DNA from: DASRDR01 sp963812945 [NCBI: uncultured Candidatus Rokubacteria bacterium]
Lineage (GTDB): Bacteria > Methylomirabilota > Methylomirabilia > Rokubacteriales
DNA length: 7,920 bases
Assembly: GCA_963812945.1 (NCBI GenBank)
Contig: CAWEXD010000011.1
Span: 1 to 7,920, forward strand
Reading direction: 5' to 3'
Positions 459 to 7,920 of the stretch are shown one piece after another (within the stretch, counting starts at the first letter, position 1; each line of letters opens with the position of its first letter). A program made the translations under genes and the position numbers. The notes below the pieces were generated by a model, which ran no database searches, was not told the DNA's origin, and saw only the letters and a program-made list of their open reading frames with translations.

Positions 459-543
459 GGTGGGGACGGTTCACGTGTCAAACATTTGTCGTCGAATGCC
501 AAGACAGCGTTGCCTGCGACGCACTAGTGTTACACGTCTCGGG
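459..543. repeat. Inverted pair of REP-like / transposon-end-like sequences
   Basis: The sequence GGGGACGGTTCACGTGTC at 462-479 and the sequence AGTGTTACACGTCTCGGG at 526-543 are imperfect inverted copies sharing an ACACGT core followed by a C-rich run. About 46 bases separate them. Motifs of the kind 'GTGTnACACGTCCCC' and 'GGGGACGGTTCACGT' recall REP-like ends linked to Y1 (IS200/RAYT) transposases in some soil bacteria; that comparison is from memory and was not searched. No transposase lies nearby. Confidence 0.3.
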
Positions 544-735
544 CAGCACAAGTTGAAGGTGGGTCGAAGATAAGTGCTGCTCGTGGCACGGGGGCGCCTG
601 CGGTTGCTACGGTGTCCGAGTCTACTGCTGTGATGGGCGACTAAGTCCCTCGTGCACCTGCCAACGCCCAAGCCCTAAGGGTGACCGCGTCTAGCAGGCT
701 GTCTGAAGGAGCCGTTCGACGCTTCGCAAAGCAGA

Positions 736-816: not shown

Positions 817-844
817 GGGTAACGACACACAGTGCAGTCGAAAA

Positions 845-850
845 AGGAGA
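845..850 (+). promoter_or_regulatory. Ribosome binding site that fixes the start at 856
   Basis: AGGAGA lies five bases before ATG 856. This favours that ATG over the in-frame GTG at 832, which has no comparable site upstream and would place a charged stretch (QSKKEK) ahead of the signal peptide. Confidence 0.7.
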
Positions 851-855
851 AGCCC

Positions 856-1464
856 ATGGTCACCAAAACAGGACTGACCGTTCTCGCTTTCGCAGCGGTT
901 CTTGTTGCGATCCCGATCGGGAGTGCGCTGGCGGCTCCGGGGGGTCAAGTGCAAGGTGGTGCGGAAGTGCAAGGTGTTTGGACTTGCACAGTTGTCAGAG
1001 CCGGCACCATAGAACGACCCATCATCTTCACTTTCGGCGCTGACGGAATCTTTAACTATTCCTCCGGCACAACGATCAACAGCATTGCTCAGGGCCCGGT
1101 GCAGAATTCCGGGTTCCACAGCCGAGGGGGCGGCGTCGGGCAGTGGACAAAGATCAGCAAGAACGTCGTCAATTACAAGTCCGTAGAGCTCTTGTATGAC
1201 GCCAACGGCAATGTGGCGGGCAGCTTCGCTGTCAACTCGACCCAACTTCTCACGCCGGCTGGTCAGCTCTGCAGCGGAAGACCGGAATGCCCCGATCAAA
1301 ACACCGAGATCAGCCTGGTGAAGTACGTATTCGATCAAAATAATGTCGATGCCGACATCGCCGCGGTAAACTTTCTCTTGCCCGCAGGAACCCTGGCGAA
1401 TTCTCTGTGCAACCGCCTGAGTAGCGGTGATGGTTTCCCGGCTCTCCCGATCCCCACGCCCTGA
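856..1464 (+). CDS. Secreted protein of unknown function, predicted beta-rich
   Basis: A 202-residue protein, and the only convincing gene of the island. Residues 1-26 form a typical Sec signal peptide: a basic start (MVTKTG), a hydrophobic core and an ALA cleavage site before APGG, so the mature protein of about 176 residues is exported. It begins with a Gly/Gln-rich stretch and then shows alternating beta-strand-like segments (GVWTCTVVRAG, PIIFTFGADGIFNYSS, GVGQWTKIS, VELLYDANGNVAGSFAV). This rhythm resembles small lipocalin-like secreted proteins that alternate 'F..DG.F' and 'YD.NG...G.F' strands; the resemblance is by eye only. Four cysteines (in WTC, QLC, PEC and SLC) could make two disulfides in the periplasm or outside the cell. 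Codons often end in A or T, unlike the GC-rich operon to the right, which suggests transfer with the island. I do not recognise a function. Confidence 0.8.
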   Translation: MVTKTGLTVLAFAAVLVAIPIGSALAAPGGQVQGGAEVQGVWTCTVVRAGTIERPIIFTFGADGIFNYSSGTTINSIAQGPVQNSGFHSRGGGVGQWTKISKNVVNYKSVELLYDANGNVAGSFAVNSTQLLTPAGQLCSGRPECPDQNTEISLVKYVFDQNNVDADIAAVNFLLPAGTLANSLCNRLSSGDGFPALPIPTP

Positions 1465-2083: not shown

Positions 2084-2140
2084 TGGTGCCGGGAGGGGGA
2101 ATCGAACCCCCACGGGCTTGCGCCCACCAGATTTTGAGTC
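2084..2140 (-). repeat. Proximal copy of the tRNA-Leu 3'-end direct repeat
   Basis: This is the partner of 61-117. It forms the 3' part of the intact tRNA-Leu, from nucleotide 32 of the gene through CCA. If the element integrated here, this copy was supplied by the element and restored the tRNA. Confidence 0.8.
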
Positions 2141-2171
2141 TGGCGCGTCTGCCTAGTTCCGCCATCCCGGC
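2084..2171 (-). tRNA. tRNA-Leu(CAA), CCA encoded
   Basis: On the minus strand the gene begins with the acceptor strand GCCGGGA, which pairs with TCCCGGC at its end, followed by discriminator A and an encoded CCA (2084-2086). The anticodon stem CCAGA/TCTGG encloses the loop CTCAAAA, so the anticodon is CAA, reading UUG. A long variable arm (TGGGC-GCAA-GCCCG) marks it as class II, as expected for leucine. The T arm is GGGGG-TTCGATT-CCCCC. The mature length is 85 nucleotides without CCA. It is divergent from tRNA-Ala and is the apparent target of the island integration, which duplicates its 3' part at 61-117. Confidence 0.97.
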
Positions 2172-2321: not shown

Positions 2322-2397
2322 GGGGCTGTAGCTCAGCTGGGAGAGCACGAGGCTGGCAGTCTCGGGGTCAGGGGTTCGATCCCCCTCAGCTCCACCA
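2322..2397 (+). tRNA. tRNA-Ala(GGC), CCA encoded
   Basis: Acceptor GGGGCTG pairs with CAGCTCC and includes the G3-U70 wobble pair, the main identity element for alanyl-tRNA synthetase. The D arm is GCTC/GAGC. The anticodon stem CGAGG/TCTCG (closing with a G-U pair) holds the loop CTGGCAG, so the anticodon is GGC, reading GCC. The T arm is AGGGG-TTCGATC-CCCCT. The 3' end is discriminator A plus encoded CCA at 2395-2397. The total is 76 nucleotides. It has its own promoter upstream and a hairpin terminator immediately downstream, so it is a single-gene transcript. Confidence 0.97.
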
Positions 2398-2527: not shown

Positions 2528-3568
2528 ATGCACGGGATCGCTCTGTTCGCCGGGCTCCTGCTGAGCCTCCTGACGGCCGCGCCGGCCGCGGCGCTGGACG
2601 GCGTGCCGGAGCCCGCGCCGGCGGGCGAGTCGTCCGCCCCGGAGCCCGCCGATCTCCGCGAAGAACTCGACCAATTGCGCGAGCGGCTGAACCGTCTCGA
2701 GACGGTCCACGCGAGCCTGCCCCGGTCGCTCCACGCCTTTCCGCTGCCGGCGCGCCTCGAGTTCGCCGGGGAGGCCGTGCCGCTCGGGCGGTGGGACGTG
2801 GCGGAGCGCCTCGAGCGGGAGTTTCTCTTGTCCCTGGGGAATCCCGCCCAGGTGGTCCTCTGGCTCAAGCGGAGCGCGCGTTACTTCCCGTACATCGAGC
2901 GCGAGCTCGCGCGGGCGGGGCTGCCCGACGACCTCAAGTACGTGGCCGTCATCGAGAGCGCGCTCCTGCCGGGCGCCTACTCGCACGCGAGCGCGCTCGG
3001 CATCTGGCAGTTCATCGCGTCGACGGCCCGGCGCTACGGGCTCTCGGTCACCTCGGGCTGGGACGAGCGGCGCAACCCCGAGCGCTCCACCGCCGCCGCG
3101 CTCGCCTTCCTTCGCGAGCTCCGACAGCGGTTCGCCGAGTGGCCGCTCGCGCTCGCCGCCTACAACGCCGGCGAGACCCGCGTCGACCAGGCGATGCGTC
3201 ACCAGGGCGTGACGAGCTACTACCAGCTCGCCCTGGCCGACGAGACGGAGCGCTACGTGTTCCGGGCGCTCGCGGCGAAGCTGATCCTCTCCGAGCCGGA
3301 GCGGTACGGCTTCGAGGTGCCGCACGAGCAGCGGTACCGGCCCCACGACGCCGACGTCATCGTGATCGACCTCCGGGACCGGACGGCCGTGGCCGAGCTC
3401 GCCCGGCAGGCCGGCTCGTTCTACCGGGAGCTGAAGGCGCTGAACCCCGAGATCGTGGACGACTGGCTCGGGAAGGGTCGCTACGCGATCCGCGTCCCGA
3501 AGGGCCACGGCCCGACGCTGCGCACCGGGCTCGGGGGCCCCGCCCGGACGGTGAACCCGCTGCGATAG
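2528..3568 (+). CDS. Membrane-bound lytic murein transglycosylase, MltD-like
   Basis: This 346-residue protein cleaves the MurNAc-GlcNAc bond of peptidoglycan in the periplasm, producing 1,6-anhydro-MurNAc ends. Residues 1-22 are a signal peptide (hydrophobic run ending APAAA); no lipobox cysteine is seen, so lipid anchoring is doubtful. Residues 41-61 (ADLREELDQLRERLNRLETV) look like a short coiled coil. The SLT domain spans roughly 115-235: catalytic Glu143 in AVIESALLPGAYS, then SALGIWQFI (155-163) and AYNAGETRV (211-219), all standard for the family. Residues 277-325 (VIVIDLRDRTAVAELA to YAIRVPKG) form one divergent LysM-like module, against two in E. coli MltD (about 450 residues). No strong ribosome binding site precedes ATG 2528, but the signal peptide starts at once from it. 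It seems to be transcribed alone, between the tRNA terminator and the hairpin at 3575. Function is confident; the exact subclass less so. Confidence 0.9.
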   Translation: MHGIALFAGLLLSLLTAAPAAALDGVPEPAPAGESSAPEPADLREELDQLRERLNRLETVHASLPRSLHAFPLPARLEFAGEAVPLGRWDVAERLEREFLLSLGNPAQVVLWLKRSARYFPYIERELARAGLPDDLKYVAVIESALLPGAYSHASALGIWQFIASTARRYGLSVTSGWDERRNPERSTAAALAFLRELRQRFAEWPLALAAYNAGETRVDQAMRHQGVTSYYQLALADETERYVFRALAAKLILSEPERYGFEVPHEQRYRPHDADVIVIDLRDRTAVAELARQAGSFYRELKALNPEIVDDWLGKGRYAIRVPKGHGPTLRTGLGGPARTVNPLR

Positions 3569-3573
3569 CGTCC

Positions 3574-3596
3574 CGGGGGCAGTGAGCCTGTCCCCG
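3574..3596 (+). terminator. Hairpin after the transglycosylase gene, possible terminator
   Basis: GGGGGCAG (3575-3582) pairs with CTGTCCCC (3588-3595), with one G-U pair and an extra C-G closing pair at 3574/3596, around the loop TGAGC. It begins six bases after the stop codon. There is no T run, so termination is not certain, and its right arm overlaps the -35 region of the next promoter. Confidence 0.4.
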
Positions 3597-3615
3597 CGCG
3601 GCTCCACGGTACAAT
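3588..3615 (+). promoter_or_regulatory. Candidate promoter of the glycosyltransferase/PqqD/kinase operon
   Basis: TACAAT at 3610-3615 is a near-consensus -10 box, rare in such GC-rich DNA. The best -35 is weak, CTGTCC at 3588-3593 with a 16-base spacer. Transcription would begin near 3622, about 14 bases before ATG 3636, so the leader is very short and has little room for a ribosome binding site. Confidence 0.5.
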
Positions 3616-3635
3616 GGCGCCGCGCGGGCGCGCCC

Positions 3636-4748
3636 ATGCGAGTCCTGCTCTGGTCGGAGCTCTTCTGGCCCTACGTCGGGGGGGCGGAGGTTCTCGCCGC
3701 CGGGCTCATGCCGGCCTTGCGGGACCGCGGCCACGAGTTCCTCGTGGTCACGTCGCACGACTGCCTGGACCTGCCGGACGACGCGTCGTTCGAGGGCATT
3801 CCGGTCCGGCGGCTCCCGTTCCGCGCAGCCACGGCCGAGCGCGACGTCGCCCGGCTGCGCGCGCTCGGGGCCGAGGTCCTCGCCCTCAAGCGCGCCTTCG
3901 CCCCGGACTTGGTCCATGTGAACGGCATGGGGCCGAGCCTTCTGCTTCATCTCCTCACGCACGCGGCGCACCCGTCCCCCTGGGTCCTGACGCTCCAGAC
4001 CGAGGTGCTGCCGGACCAGACCGGCCGCACGGACACGCTCCTCCACCGGGCGCTCTCGTCGGCGAGCTGGGTCGTGGCGTGCGCGGAGGCCGTCCTCGGG
4101 CAGGCGCGCGCGGTCGCCCCGGAGATCACCCCGCGCGCGTCGGTGATCCGCAACGCCGTCGACGTGCCCGCGGTGGCGCCCGGGCCGCTGCCGCTCGAGC
4201 CGCCGCGGCTGCTCTGTCTCGGGCGGCTCGTGCCGGCGAAGGGGCACGACGTGGCGCTGACGGCCTTCGCGACCCTCAGCCGCCGGTTCCCGGCGCTCCG
4301 GCTGATCGTGGCCGGCGACGGCGCGGCGCGGCCGGCCCTCGAGCGCCAGGCGCGGGCGCTCGGGATCGCGGACGCCGTCGACTTCCTGGGGTGGGTCGCT
4401 CCCGCCGAGGTCCCCGCGCTCCTCAATGCCGCCACCGTGGTCGTGCTACCGTCGCGGCGTGAGGGGCTCCCGCTCGCGGCCGTGCAGGCGGCCCTGATGG
4501 CGCGCCCCCTCGTGGCGACGCGCGTCGGCGGGCTCCCTGAGGTGGTGATCGACGGGGAGACCGGGCTCCTGGTCGCGCCGGACGATGCGCCCGGTCTCGC
4601 CGCGGCAGTCGCGCGGCTCCTCGAGCGCCCCGCGGACGCCGAGCGGCTCGGCTGGGCGGCGCGCGCGCGAGCCCGCGACGTGCTCGGCTGGAAGCGCTGC
4701 GTCGACGCATACGAGGCGGTCTACCGGGCGGTCGGGGGAGGGTCGTGA
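3636..4748 (+). CDS. Glycosyltransferase family 4 (GT-B fold)
   Basis: A 370-residue cytoplasmic or membrane-associated retaining glycosyltransferase that would move a sugar from a nucleotide donor onto a growing glycan, lipid carrier or other acceptor. The N-terminal acceptor domain begins with MRVLLWSELFWPYVGGAE, including the glycine-rich loop at 14-17. The donor domain shows CLGRLVPAKGHD (194-205, with Arg197 and Lys202 in the phosphate-binding positions), VAGDGAARPALE, and SRREGLPLAAVQ (273-284), followed by ATRVGGLPEVVIDGETGLL. In the usual E-x7-E motif Glu276 is present but the second position is Gln284. I chose ATG 3636, which starts the canonical beta strand; the in-frame GTG at 3582 overlaps the hairpin and the promoter. 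It is the first gene of the operon, and its TGA overlaps the next ATG by one base. Sugar and acceptor cannot be told. Confidence 0.88.
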   Translation: MRVLLWSELFWPYVGGAEVLAAGLMPALRDRGHEFLVVTSHDCLDLPDDASFEGIPVRRLPFRAATAERDVARLRALGAEVLALKRAFAPDLVHVNGMGPSLLLHLLTHAAHPSPWVLTLQTEVLPDQTGRTDTLLHRALSSASWVVACAEAVLGQARAVAPEITPRASVIRNAVDVPAVAPGPLPLEPPRLLCLGRLVPAKGHDVALTAFATLSRRFPALRLIVAGDGAARPALERQARALGIADAVDFLGWVAPAEVPALLNAATVVVLPSRREGLPLAAVQAALMARPLVATRVGGLPEVVIDGETGLLVAPDDAPGLAAAVARLLERPADAERLGWAARARARDVLGWKRCVDAYEAVYRAVGGGS

Positions 4749-5197
4749 TGCTGAGGCCGGACGATCGGCTCGTCCCGAACACGAGCGAGGTCGCGGGCGA
4801 GGTCATCGAGGGCGAGGCCATCATCATCGACCTCGCGAGCGGCGTGTACTATAGCATGACCGGCGCCGGCGGCGTCCTGTGGGCGCTCCTCGAGGAAGGC
4901 CGGAGCCTCGGGGACGCGGCCACGGCGATCGCGGCGCGCTACGACGTGCCGGTCGACCGGGTGCGCGCGGACGTCGAGCGCGTCGCCGCCGAGCTCCTCC
5001 AGCATGGCCTCGTGGTCCGAGGGGACGCCGCGCCGCCCCCGCGCCCCCCCGCCTCGCCGGGGCCCGGGCCCCAGCCTGCCTACGAGGCGCCGCAGCTCCA
5101 CGTCTATCGCGACCTGAGCGCGCTGCTCGCCCTGGACCCGCCCGCGCCCGGTCTGAGGGACATCCCCTGGAAGGCGTCCGCGACCGATCCCGGGTGA
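4748..5197 (+). CDS. PqqD-like peptide-binding protein with a C-terminal tail
   Basis: A 149-residue protein. Residues 1-92 have the PqqD (RiPP recognition element) pattern: RLVPNTSEVAGEVIEGEAII, then a strand-turn reading DLASGVYYSMTGAGGVLWALL, then a helix DAATAIAARYDV and a wing-like helix to HGLVV. In RiPP pathways this fold binds a precursor's leader peptide and presents it to a modifying enzyme. A Pro/Gly-rich linker (95-110) leads to a tail at 112-141 with APQLHVYRDLSALLALDP and a later IPW. From memory, tails of the form P.L.V..D...LL.LDP...W recur on PqqD-type proteins near HprK-like kinases. ATG 4748 overlaps the upstream TGA by one base and has GGAG seven bases before it. The stop overlaps the kinase's GTG. 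The partner could be the kinase, the radical SAM enzyme, or a peptide outside the window. Confidence 0.8.
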   Translation: MLRPDDRLVPNTSEVAGEVIEGEAIIIDLASGVYYSMTGAGGVLWALLEEGRSLGDAATAIAARYDVPVDRVRADVERVAAELLQHGLVVRGDAAPPPRPPASPGPGPQPAYEAPQLHVYRDLSALLALDPPAPGLRDIPWKASATDPG

Positions 5198-6285
5198 GCC
5201 CGCCGACCGACCCGGGCCGCCGGCCGGCCGATCCCCGCGGTGAGCGTGGCGGCGACGCGCGCCTCGATCCCGCCGGCGCGCTCGAGGCGCTGCGGGTGGC
5301 CTGGGCGCGCGAGCGCGCGCAGGCGCCGCGAGCCGTGTTCGAGGCGTCGTACCTCCTCGCGGGCCGAACCGTGCGGCTTCGCGTCGTCGGGTTGCGCCTC
5401 GCGCGCCTCGTGTCCCGGCCGTTCGCCCACGTCCGGATCTCTGACCCGGGCTCGCCGGCGCTCACGATCGACCTCTACGAGGGGACGTCGCCGGCGCGCG
5501 GGCACGCGCTCCCGCTCGCCGGGGTCCTCGCGTCGTCCGCCGACGGCGCGCTCCTGGCCCACGCGCGGCCGGACTCGCTCACGGTGCTCGATCGCCGGCA
5601 GGGCCACCTCGCGGGGCGGATCGATCCCGACGGGCGGCAGGCCGGCCGCGAGCGCGCGCGGCCCTTGAGCCTCATGCTGGCGGTCTGGTGCGGCGACCGG
5701 GAGATCCAGCTGGTGCACGCGGGCCTCGTCGCCCGAGACGGGCACGGCGTGCTCCTCGGCGGATCGAGCGGAGCCGGCAAGTCGACCGCTGCGCTCGCCT
5801 GCGCCAGCGCGGGATTCGACTTCCTGGGCGACGACTGCGTCGCGCTCCGCCGGAACGGGGACGGAGCGTTCGAGGGCCACAGTCTCTACTGCTCCACCGC
5901 GCTCGCGCCGGCCGAGCTCCCGTGGTTCCCGGCGCTGGCGGCGCACGCGACGGAGGCCGCGCCGGGCGACGACGACAAGGCCATCGTGTTCGGCACCGAG
6001 GCCTTCCCCGGCCGGCTGCCGCCGATGGCGCGGATCCGGCTCCTCGTCTTGCCCCGCATCGTGCAGCGCGGCCCCCTCGGGGTGCGACCGGCGAGCGGGG
6101 CCGAGGCCCTCCTGGCGCTCGGCCCGAGCTCGCTCGTAAAGCGCGCCGCGCCCGCCCACGACGCCTTGCGGCGACTCTCGGCGCTGGCGACGCGCGTCCC
6201 GAGCTACTGGGTCGACGTGGATCGCCGGCTCGACGCCATTCCTCGCCGGGTCGGCGCCCTGCTGGCGGAGGTGGTGCGCGGGTGA
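5194..6285 (+). CDS. HprK-related P-loop kinase
   Basis: A 363-residue protein. The C-terminal half matches the HPr kinase/phosphorylase fold: IQLVHAGLVARDGHGVLLGG leads into the Walker A loop GGSSGAGKST (189-198), then AALACASAGFDFLGDDCVAL, with the acidic pair Asp213-Asp214 where HprK has its Walker B/catalytic region. Classical HprK phosphorylates a serine of HPr in sugar regulation. No HPr gene is seen here, so a different substrate is likely; related kinases phosphorylate peptides in some lasso-peptide clusters. The N-terminal part (about 45-160; SYLLAGRTVRLRVVG, LTIDLYEG) is a beta-rich domain typical of the 'HprK-related kinase' group rather than the HprK regulatory domain. The start GTG 5194 overlaps the PqqD-like stop by four bases (GTGA), implying coupled translation and matched amounts. 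An ATP-dependent protein kinase is likely; the target is unknown. Confidence 0.8.
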   Translation: MSPPTDPGRRPADPRGERGGDARLDPAGALEALRVAWARERAQAPRAVFEASYLLAGRTVRLRVVGLRLARLVSRPFAHVRISDPGSPALTIDLYEGTSPARGHALPLAGVLASSADGALLAHARPDSLTVLDRRQGHLAGRIDPDGRQAGRERARPLSLMLAVWCGDREIQLVHAGLVARDGHGVLLGGSSGAGKSTAALACASAGFDFLGDDCVALRRNGDGAFEGHSLYCSTALAPAELPWFPALAAHATEAAPGDDDKAIVFGTEAFPGRLPPMARIRLLVLPRIVQRGPLGVRPASGAEALLALGPSSLVKRAAPAHDALRRLSALATRVPSYWVDVDRRLDAIPRRVGALLAEVVRG

Positions 6286-7028
6286 CGGCGCCCGTCGTCA
6301 GCTGCATCATCCCGGTCCTGAACGGGGAGCGGTATCTCGGCGCCGCCCTCGAGAGCGTGCTCGGGCAGACCTACGGCGCGGTTGAGGTCATCGTCGCGGA
6401 CGACGGGTCGACGGACGGCACGCGGGACGTGGCGGGCGCATTCGGGTCCCGCGTGCGCTACCTCCACCAGGCGAACGCCGGCCACGCCGCGGCGCGGAAC
6501 CTCGGGCTCTCCACCGCCGGCGGCGCGTTCGTCGCGTTCCTCGACGCGGACGATCTCTGGCACGAGGACAAGCTCGCGCGCCAGATGGGGCGCTTCGACG
6601 CGCGGCCCGAGCTCGGCATCTCGGTGACCCACGTGCGGAACTTCTGGAGCCCCGACGCGCCGGTGCCGGACGGCGGCCTCGATCCCCGGGTGCCGCAGGT
6701 GATGGAGCCGGTGCCCGGCTACCGGAGCGTCACGCTCCTGGCCCGCCGACGGGTCTTCGAGCTCGTGGGCGCGTTCGATCCCGCGCTCCGGCACGGGAAC
6801 GACACGGCGTGGTTCCTCCGGGCCGCGGAGCACGGGGTGGTGATGGAGCTCCTCCCCGACGTCCTCGTCCTCCGGCGCCTCCACCTCGCGAACCGGAGCC
6901 GGCGCCTGGCGGAGTCGAGCCGGCGGGAGTACCTGCGCATCCTGAAGGCGTCGCTCGACCGGCGGCGTCGCGACGCCACGACCCCCCCACGCCCCTACGA
7001 GTTCCCGGCGTTCCCGTCGGGCGCATGA
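6282..7028 (+). CDS. Glycosyltransferase family 2 (GT-A fold)
   Basis: A 248-residue inverting-type glycosyltransferase of the cytoplasmic face. It starts with VSCIIPVLNGERYLGAALES (6-25), the classic GT2 opening, followed by VIVADDGSTDGT (37-47) with Asp40/Asp41 for nucleotide binding, AGHAAARNLGLSTAGG (66-81), and FLDADDLW (86-93) holding the metal-binding DxD at 88-90. The acceptor-side motif is GNDTAWFLRAAEHG (172-185), where Asp174 takes the place of the usual catalytic 'ED' aspartate. No membrane segment is present. The start GTG 6282 overlaps the kinase stop by four bases (GTGA), so translation is coupled. With the GT4 gene upstream it suggests assembly of a glycan of at least two sugars, or glycosylation of the locus product. 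The C-terminus is short and Arg/Pro-rich. The donor sugar is unknown. Confidence 0.88.
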   Translation: MTAPVVSCIIPVLNGERYLGAALESVLGQTYGAVEVIVADDGSTDGTRDVAGAFGSRVRYLHQANAGHAAARNLGLSTAGGAFVAFLDADDLWHEDKLARQMGRFDARPELGISVTHVRNFWSPDAPVPDGGLDPRVPQVMEPVPGYRSVTLLARRRVFELVGAFDPALRHGNDTAWFLRAAEHGVVMELLPDVLVLRRLHLANRSRRLAESSRREYLRILKASLDRRRRDATTPPRPYEFPAFPSGA

Positions 7029-7082
7029 GCGCACGGGCCGCCGCAGGCCGCCACAGGCCGAAGGCCGTGAGAGGGTAGCCCA
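7029..7082 (+). promoter_or_regulatory. Short gap with AGGCCG repeats and the radical SAM ribosome binding site
   Basis: This is the only non-overlapping junction within the operon. It contains four closely spaced GGCCG units between 7036 and 7067, partly as a repeated CAGGCCGCCA-like phrase. GAGAGGG at 7069-7075 lies seven bases before GTG 7083 and sets that start. No promoter or terminator is evident, so transcription probably continues through. Confidence 0.4.
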
Positions 7083-7920
7083 GTGAGCGACGGCATGGCG
7101 TCGCCGGCCGCCGGGTCTCACCCGATTCCGCTGTTCGAGCGGCTCCAGGTCGAGTCGCAGGCGCACTGCAATCGCGCGTGCTGGTTCTGCCCGCGCACCT
7201 TCGACCGGTCCGGGAAGTACCTCGACGGGGCCGGCCGGGCCGTCCCGGGCCAGATGCCCACCGAGACGATCCTCGGGATCCTGGACCAGGCGCGCGTGCT
7301 CGGCTTCCAGGGCGAGGTCGGCTTCCATCACTACTCGGAGCCCTTGCTCGACCGGCGGAACGTCATGCTGGCGCGCGAGGCGCGGGGGCGGGGCCTCCAC
7401 CCCTACCTCCACACGAACGGGGACGTGCTGCGGCACGACGACCGGCTCTGCCGGGACGTCGTGGAGGTGTACGCGCGCATCGTCGTGGGGCTGTACGACT
7501 ACACGACGGACGAGGAGCGGGCCGAGGCCGAGCGATACTGGGAGCGGAGGCTCGCCGGGGCGCGCCTCGAGTTCAGCCCGATCGGCGTGGCCGGGATCCG
7601 CTCGGGCCACAGCCTCGGGATTCCCCGGGCCCTGGTGCCCACCGATCCCCGGATGGCCGTCCCGGATCTCACGTTCGGGCACGCGCCGTGCCATCGGCCC
7701 CCCCTCCGGATGATCATCCAGCACGACGGCGAGATGGCGAACTGCTGTGAGGACACGCGCGGGGCCTTCGGCCTGGGCAACGTCCATCGGAGCTCGCTCG
7801 CGGAGCTCTGGCTCTCGCCGCGCCACGTCCTGATCGTGGAGGATCTCATCGCCGGCCGCCGGCACCGGTACGCGCTCTGCCGGCAGTGCCCCCTGTCGCC
7901 GACCGGGCGCCCGCCCGAGG
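7083..7920 (+). CDS. Radical SAM/SPASM enzyme (3' end beyond the window)
   Basis: An open frame of 279 complete codons that runs off the right edge without a stop. Near the N-terminus, FERLQVESQAHCNRACWFCP holds the radical SAM cluster motif Cys29-x3-Cys33-x2-Cys36, which binds a [4Fe-4S] cluster and S-adenosylmethionine. GFHHYSEPLLD follows in the place of the usual 'GEPLL' motif. The later part has Cys203-x12-Gly216-x4-Cys221, the first SPASM signature (C-x9-15-G-x4-C), then GNVHRSSLAELW, then Cys266-x2-Cys269; the remaining SPASM cysteines should lie past 7920. SPASM proteins bind extra iron-sulfur clusters and often modify peptides, though some act on sugars or in surface-glycan clusters. 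The start GTG 7083 has GAGAGGG seven bases upstream; ATG 7095 is an alternative. Beside a PqqD-like protein, a peptide substrate is plausible but unproven. Confidence 0.88.
   Translation, partial: MSDGMASPAAGSHPIPLFERLQVESQAHCNRACWFCPRTFDRSGKYLDGAGRAVPGQMPTETILGILDQARVLGFQGEVGFHHYSEPLLDRRNVMLAREARGRGLHPYLHTNGDVLRHDDRLCRDVVEVYARIVVGLYDYTTDEERAEAERYWERRLAGARLEFSPIGVAGIRSGHSLGIPRALVPTDPRMAVPDLTFGHAPCHRPPLRMIIQHDGEMANCCEDTRGAFGLGNVHRSSLAELWLSPRHVLIVEDLIAGRRHRYALCRQCPLSPTGRPPE

Follow-up and report, generated by a model that had tools for sequence, protein, structure and literature searches.

What does a PqqD-like protein do when its gene lies next to that of an HprK-like kinase and among glycosyltransferase genes, and do these genes form a unit? 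The question is raised by a stretch of 7,920 nucleotides (the whole of which is called the window below) from contig CAWEXD010000011.1 of an uncultured Candidatus Rokubacteria bacterium. The PqqD-like protein encoded in the window ends in a conserved tail resembling the leader of a lasso-type precursor peptide. A cassette made of a PqqD protein with this tail, an HprK-like kinase and a GT2-type glycosyltransferase was found at three distant loci: in the window, on a plasmid of Crinalium epipsammum and in a genome referred to as G189. The existence of this cassette is well supported, and it appears to be a genuine, so far unstudied route to a phosphorylated and sugar-coated peptide. Its elements in the window are as follows (RiPP, ribosomally synthesized and post-translationally modified peptide):

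4745..5197, + strand: PqqD-like RiPP recognition element (Pfam PqqD, 6.6e-15; domain about residues 24-90)
5078..5194, + strand: residues 112-150 of the PqqD-like protein, its C-terminal tail, with homologues in Crinalium and G189 (alignments A4 and A7; shuffle test)
5081..5098, + strand: YEAPQL, residues 113-118, fitting the [Y/W]xxPx[L/V/I/F/A] leader motif (PMC13381572)
5162..5194, + strand: IPWKASATDPG, the end of the tail, in which S145 and T147 are putative phosphosites, candidates by inference
5194..6285, + strand: HprK-like kinase (Hpr_kinase_C, 7.2e-08)
6282..7028, + strand: GT2-type glycosyltransferase (Glycos_transf_2, 8e-32)

The tail of the PqqD-like protein

The PqqD-like protein is made of 150 residues. 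Its Pfam domain covers residues 24-90 and matched PF05402 with 55.6 bits, compared with a cut-off of 23.4, and the closest solved chains were TbiB1 (7.4e-07), LppB (5.2e-04) and PbaB1 (1.4e-03). Matches to the PqqD family and to solved elements with bound leaders identified the protein as a RiPP recognition element. A proline-rich linker (residues 93-111) connects the domain to the conserved C-terminal tail (residues 112-150), which reads AYEAPQLHVYRDLSALLALDPPAPGLRDIPWKASATDPG. Residues 113-132 (YEAPQLHVYRDLSALLALDP) are lasso-type-leader-like and match the tail of the Crinalium PqqD protein, whose C-terminal end is FEKPMLEKFTDMEDLLLLDPIHEVDVEAGWPNAKTA. A tail block of 23 residues aligned to that of Crinalium with a score of 56; the maxima in two sets of 20,000 shuffles were 45 and 44 (0 of 20,000 reaching the observed score). 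Between Crinalium and G189, the tails were identical at 18 of 32 positions and the PqqD domains at 19 of 76 (p 0.002), and DPIHE[VI]DVExGWP was common to both tails. Between these two very distant bacteria, the tail is better kept than the domain expected to bind it. As judged from sequence, the alignments and shuffles show that the tails of the window, Crinalium and G189 proteins are homologous.

[Y/W]xxPx[L/V/I/F/A] is the motif bound by lasso recognition elements, and the LPP leader motif is close to it (PMC13381572). Among 65 open reading frames (ORFs) of 25-220 residues scanned in the window, [YWF]xxPx[LVIFAM] was found only in the PqqD-like protein and in a minus-strand ORF (471-671). 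The 12 residues following YxxPxL resembled the precursor encoded in genome G186, YEKPQLIEYGDLNSLTAG, with p values of about 0.001 for the window tail, 0.006 for G189 and 0.03 for Crinalium. Comparison of the tails with the precursor of genome G373 gave p values of 0.03, 0.09 and 0.19, and none of six other precursors gave a value below 0.07. A penultimate Thr is typical of lasso leaders, as described in PMC10368454. In the alignment of the window tail to the G186 leader, a Leu occupies the corresponding position, which might fit a leader that is not cleaved.

The groove of the domain was numbered according to LppB, and this numbering was fixed by 14/14 named LppB residues. The LppB contacts D70, Y60, N33 and F74 correspond to D76, Y66, T39 and V80 of the window protein. 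At the position of LppB D70, D76 goes with a Tyr as the first motif residue of the tail in the window, Ala goes with Phe in Crinalium and Val with Gln in G189; this groove-tail pairing rests on three sequences, too few to prove covariation. A single-sequence AlphaFold model of the PqqD-like protein had a mean pLDDT (predicted local distance difference test) of 43.8, and both AlphaFold models made were too poor for use.

Recurrence of the cassette at distant loci

The kinase had a single match among 72,556 plasmid records, the Crinalium epipsammum plasmid pCRI9333.04 (28% identity over 78%, 1e-12). According to the PLSDB table, which is an incomplete annotation, the gene order on this plasmid is PqqD, PF14907 nucleotidyltransferase, HPr kinase, FkbM methyltransferase and GT2. 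The window PqqD query gave no plasmid match at 0.01. Five other plasmid matches were obtained with the Crinalium PqqD protein, all ending at residue 94 or before; four of them were inspected (H5 left out), and two were unannotated, one lay in a lasso-type cluster and one had a lasso-type PqqD. The Crinalium tail alone matched only itself among the plasmids, even at an E-value of 10. The opposite strand of the Crinalium stretch (L003, 10372-17248) encodes an oxidoreductase, a second GT2, an SMP-30-type protein, a TPR protein, a second PF14907 protein and an MsbA-like ABC transporter; these genes would complete an LPP-like set.

Genomes were sampled from one phylum (398 genomes, centre G001; locus L001 of the centre genome looks clostridial by its genes). 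Of the 398, 85 gave a match to the kinase, in many cases presumably to a housekeeping HPr kinase, and 20 gave one to PqqD at 0.001. G189 was at the top for both the kinase (1.6e-32, the next being 1.3e-13) and PqqD (2e-16), and it was the only one of the 20 PqqD-positive genomes in which the match ran through the tail. A tail-only profile agreed with this result: it matched 1/398 genomes, once in G189, and once on the Crinalium plasmid, with no second copy and no separate tail-like precursor. No further tail was found in 149 relatives of G189 or in 10 genomes of its class. The PqqD protein of G189 scored 14.1 bits in Pfam, below the cut-off of 23.4, and its identity therefore rests on profiles A3 and A4. 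Its locus on contig 45 contains the following genes, all on the same strand:

57035-57763: GT2
57736-58155: PqqD with tail
58174-59886: PF14907
59864-60913: kinase

A GT4-like gene, two dehydratase/epimerase-type genes and another GT2 are also present on this strand, and a Wzz-type gene lies nearby, the copy being surrounded by polysaccharide-type genes.

The window kinase matched Hpr_kinase_C with 32.6 bits, just below the curated threshold of 33.3. Lasso peptide kinases of the HprK type use a His-Lys-Asp-Asp set (PMC9266682). The window kinase keeps this set, also expected of an LPP kinase, in the corresponding order (VHAG, GKS, GDD): His175 in VHAG (5713-5724), the Walker A Lys196 in GGSSGAGKS (5758-5784) and Asp213-Asp214 in GDDC (5827-5838). 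In a tree of 18 rows, from which row G012b (no P-loop found) was excluded, the kinases of the window, Crinalium and G189 formed one clade (100/98); these three had been chosen by the tail of their PqqD partner. The other groups were a clade of eight kinases, at three loci of which a WxxP precursor was read, a group of three around G012, the LPP-like locus, the pair of G186 and G373, G013, and a housekeeping-type HprK. A kinase scan of genome contigs returned only a locus that looks like a housekeeping HPr kinase, and protein and alignment scans of viral contigs found no relative. A DNA pattern for the tail matched two viral contigs with phage-like ORFs, and these matches were taken as chance.

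Plasmid matches of the window GT2 were found in 1,190 records. The Crinalium plasmid was top-listed (42%, 5e-43), and the best E-value of the others among the matches listed was 2e-28. Seven of these matches were inspected: one was Crinalium, four were annotated without naming PqqD or HPr kinase, and two were unannotated. In a tree of 13 rows, the four GT2 sequences from the cassette grouped together (93/91, not starred), and 2/500 shuffles were equally clustered. This grouping was weaker than the kinase clade (93/91 versus 100/98).

Because they share loci, a kinase clade and a GT2 group, the PqqD protein with the tail, the kinase and the GT2 co-segregate. The interpretation in the initial annotation depends on the PqqD-kinase pair not lying beside the glycosyltransferases by chance. 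This was borne out by the Crinalium and G189 loci, each of which combines the kinase with a PqqD protein that has the same tail and with a GT2 from the same group. Its proposal of a five-gene unit held for these three genes; the GT4 and radical SAM genes have no demonstrated link to the cassette.

Related systems and possible roles of the tail

A PqqD-like protein and an HprK-like kinase are also the likeness to HPr-rel-A, under which the initial annotation had filed the locus. We rejected this assignment: the kinase reached 37.1 bits with TIGR04352, for which the cut-off is 200, and the HPr-rel-A PqqD-family model, which we assume to exist as the partner, was not among four NCBIfam matches at E-values up to 0.1. 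SynChlorMet shares an HprK-like protein and a PqqD relative with the window, and its cassette includes radical SAM genes; the ScmC model gave 25.4 bits compared with 125, and ScmD was not among the NCBIfam matches. The scores were also below the cut-offs for the HPr(Ser) kinase/phosphatase model TIGR00679 (34.3 versus 240 bits) and for the lasso peptide PqqD models (39.6 versus 70 and 34.2 versus 80 bits).

The LPP system, as described in PMC13381572, is alike in having a recognition element beside an HprK-like kinase, surroundings rich in glycosyltransferases and a YxxPx-aliphatic peptide. An NTP transferase and an MsbA-like transporter are shared by LPP and the Crinalium relative; PF14907 is also found in G189, and neither the NTP transferase nor the transporter is in the visible window. 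LPP has its own separate precursor and an SpI-type peptidase, whereas in the window it is the recognition element that bears the leader-like peptide, and the window kinase belongs to a different clade from that of the LPP-like locus G012. No ORF was accepted as an LPP precursor (YxxPxVLxHQxIxFETxxS) in the window up to 7920, on the Crinalium plasmid or in the G189 stretch. The SpI-type family had no match in the visible window or in the scanned genes of the relatives, although no dedicated search was made.

Paeninodin and pseudomycoidin (PMC9266682) are alike in their HprK-like kinase with His-Lys-Asp-Asp and, as regards the relatives, in a nucleotidyltransferase-type enzyme tied to hexose addition. 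They differ in that neither a cyclase, a B2 peptidase nor a separate precursor was found in the window or in the examined neighbours of the relatives; B2 peptidase and Asn-synthase-like cyclase were absent from the window to 7920, from 18 Crinalium features and from 9 full G189 neighbours. For pseudomycoidin, the same source describes phosphorylation of the C-terminal Ser by the kinase, followed by the addition of hexose to it by PsmN. PMC13381572 reports that the LPP kinase polyphosphorylates core Ser3, and that paeninodin and LPP clusters carry PF14907-like enzymes.

The G186 and G373 clusters resemble the cassette by their HprK-like kinase, PF14907, PqqD and a precursor leader that is tail-like; they differ by their separate precursor, a Transglut_core3 protein and kinases that form a clade of their own. 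These clusters (L044 7660-14641 in G186, L045 4690-10419 in G373) encode an HprK-like kinase, PF14907, a discrete PqqD, Transglut_core3, a B12-binding radical SAM protein, DUF362 and a short precursor, and possibly represent another RiPP class. In borosins, a peptide substrate is fused in cis to a maturation protein, the methyltransferase; here the fusion partner is the recognition element. In the literature searched, PqqD and HprK were not found together, a weak sign since the LPP paper does not use the word PqqD. No work combining PqqD, HPr kinase, glycosyltransferase and radical SAM was found, nor any pairing among HprK-related, PqqD and exosortase, and the terms HPr-rel-A and HprK-related kinase were not met among the matches listed.

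The best reading of the cassette is a variant of the peptide systems that combine a RiPP recognition element (RRE), an HprK-like kinase and a nucleotidyltransferase, such as those of paeninodin and LPP. What distinguishes it from other RRE-HprK peptide phosphorylation is the leader-like tail in cis: the published systems considered (PMC13381572 and PMC9266682) phosphorylate peptides from separate precursors, and in the cassette the recognition protein itself includes the leader-like peptide. The idea of a phosphorylated and glycosylated peptide, raised in the initial annotation, fits these nearest studied systems. Its statement that no precursor peptide is visible overlooked the leader-like tail of the PqqD-like protein itself, and its interpretation as a whole is partly supported. 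We tentatively propose, at a probability just below even, a RiPP-type cassette whose recognition element has a leader-like peptide in cis and presents this tail for phosphorylation and glycosylation. The groove of the PqqD-like protein, in the same copy or in a neighbouring one, would receive the tail, and this docking would bring the Ser/Thr near the C-terminus within reach of the kinase. The GT2, and perhaps the GT4, might then extend the phosphate. In the two relatives, the PF14907 enzyme may act between kinase and glycosyltransferase, like PsmN in pseudomycoidin. The end product would be fixed, a phospho-glycosylated protein tail that may serve as a primer or anchor for surface glycan, rather than a variable secreted peptide. 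A fixed function is favoured over a variable product because DPIHE[VI]DVExGWP is shared and the tails are better kept than the domains between Crinalium and G189. We infer the self-substrate step, and likewise which step uses the tail. It is doubtful, and on balance rather unlikely, that the PqqD-like protein is its own substrate in the fuller sense of a non-cleaved leader with a short core, a glycogenin-like RiPP-derived carrier that primes surface polysaccharide once glycosyltransferases have extended its phosphorylated Ser/Thr, as opposed to a natural product that is secreted. If the tail is the substrate, machinery for peptide natural products would have been turned into a carrier for glycan assembly.

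Several observations weigh against this proposal. The cassette rests on three loci only, and no nucleotidyltransferase is present in the visible Pfam matches of the window, which ends at 7920. The window tail is no better kept than its domain (10/32 and 9/32 versus 21/82 and 21/76). In the kinase tree, the TAIL_G189 branch is long and the window kinase has an unusual composition. The likeness to G186 is the best of 24 uncorrected pairings, and a pooled test against G186 and G373 (156/20,000) used precursors chosen after looking. A change of LppB N33 nearly abolishes leader binding (PMC13381572). This Asn is kept in none of the three proteins, which have T, L and K instead, and LppB Phe74 is replaced by Val in the window protein. 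The G189 tail has no aromatic first motif residue but a Q. Finally, no Ser/Thr is aligned among the tails, in which S/T are found at -6 and -4, at -2, and at -5 and -1.

This lack of an aligned phospho-acceptor would be expected if the tail were not a substrate but a docking or auto-inhibitory pseudo-leader, which either serves to recruit the kinase or nucleotidyltransferase or blocks the groove until it is displaced by a separate precursor. Such a precursor would lie past 7920 in the window or have gone unrecognised in the relatives. We consider this alternative somewhat unlikely. DPIHE[VI]DVExGWP is kept beyond the leader motif in Crinalium and G189, as a docking peptide would be; on the other side, no ORF near PqqD was accepted as a precursor in either of them, and neither has a second tail copy. 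The same scan was applied to control loci around discrete PqqD genes, which covered 14/19 of the genomes with a non-tail PqqD (G136, G166, G241, G324 and G185 left out). A short precursor with a leader was read at 7/14 of these loci (G098, G106, G012, G396, G368, G186 and G373). The scan thus recognised only half of the controls, and the missing precursor at the tail loci is weakly supported. The precursor calls were the author's reading of script candidates, and by-eye rejections include ORFs at G377, G187, window 471-671 and Crinalium 1202-1402. As the gene caller favours the longer ORF, PqqD was lost at the window, G336, G106, G220, G368 and G187, where positions were taken from the PqqD profile search. 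A pseudo-leader would amount to a built-in control of the recognition element.

The genomic surroundings bear on two further explanations. The G189 copy lies amid sugar-nucleotide and Wzz-type genes and the window copy between two glycosyltransferases, and the radical SAM gene is BtrN-like rather than peptide-cyclase-like, as would suit a PqqD-like adaptor outside RiPP synthesis and a kinase that controls polysaccharide synthesis through some other protein or a small molecule. This explanation is improbable: among solved chains, the domain is nearest to recognition elements of lasso and LPP systems, the relatives carry PF14907 like the paeninodin and LPP clusters, and an HprK-like gene was present at 13/14 of the discrete-PqqD loci. 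Still less probable is a functionless, disordered extension in a cassette of polysaccharide genes that are neighbours by chance. The small number of loci, the presence of the tail in 1/398 genomes and the GT4 and radical SAM genes, which are not tied to the cassette, agree with it, but between Crinalium and G189 the tail is better conserved than the domain, and it occurs together with a kinase clade of its own and a GT2 group.

Organisation of the window and flanking genes

Two further genes complete the set of five described in the initial annotation:

3636..4748, + strand: GT4-type glycosyltransferase (Pfam Glyco_trans_1_4, 4.5e-39); the longest frame opens at 3582
7083..7919, + strand: radical SAM protein (SPASM, 3.7e-09; Radical_SAM, 6.7e-07); the frame is still open at the window end

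ORF frames and Pfam matches agreed that all five genes are present on the + strand in the order and with the domains originally described, forming a real, co-directional set. The third-codon-position GC content of 0.93-0.96 in each gene also supports the five as real; G+C was 72-78% across window positions 3601-7800. GTGA-type overlaps of 4 bases were found at the three junctions between the GT4, PqqD, kinase and GT2 genes. The first overlap shrinks to 1 base if PqqD starts at the ATG at 4748, and the overlaps of 1, 4 and 4 bases given earlier are acceptable with this start. A gap of 54 bases separates the GT2 from the radical SAM gene.

The GT4 gene is translationally coupled to the PqqD-like gene through this overlap of 4 bases or 1 base, and a GT4-like gene lies two genes downstream of PqqD in G189. 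The radical SAM gene encodes CNRACWFC (7167-7190) and a BtrN-like auxiliary-cluster region. Its only solved relatives at E-values up to 1 were two BtrN chains (BtrN 4.3e-16), with an alignment that covers the radical SAM part and extends weakly over the auxiliary-cluster part. BtrN acts as a cyclitol dehydrogenase in butirosin synthesis, and for the window protein an oxidation of the sugar type is no less likely than peptide chemistry. The Crinalium stretch has 18 annotated features, none of which names a radical SAM product, and radical SAM families had no match in the 9 full G189 neighbours scanned.

An ORF of 210 residues at 832-1464 (+) has a signal-peptide-like start and a third-position GC of 0.66, compared with 0.93-0.96 in the operon; it matched nothing in Pfam at 0.1 or in PHROGs at 0.01. 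The PqqD-like protein and the kinase likewise matched nothing in PHROGs, and there was no phage-gene sign. Upstream of the operon, ARAGORN and Rfam identified a tRNA-Leu (caa) at 2084-2171 (-) and a tRNA-Ala (ggc) at 2322-2397 (+). A lytic transglycosylase gene (2528-3568, +; SLT domain, 1.3e-24) lies directly upstream of the GT4 gene on the same strand.

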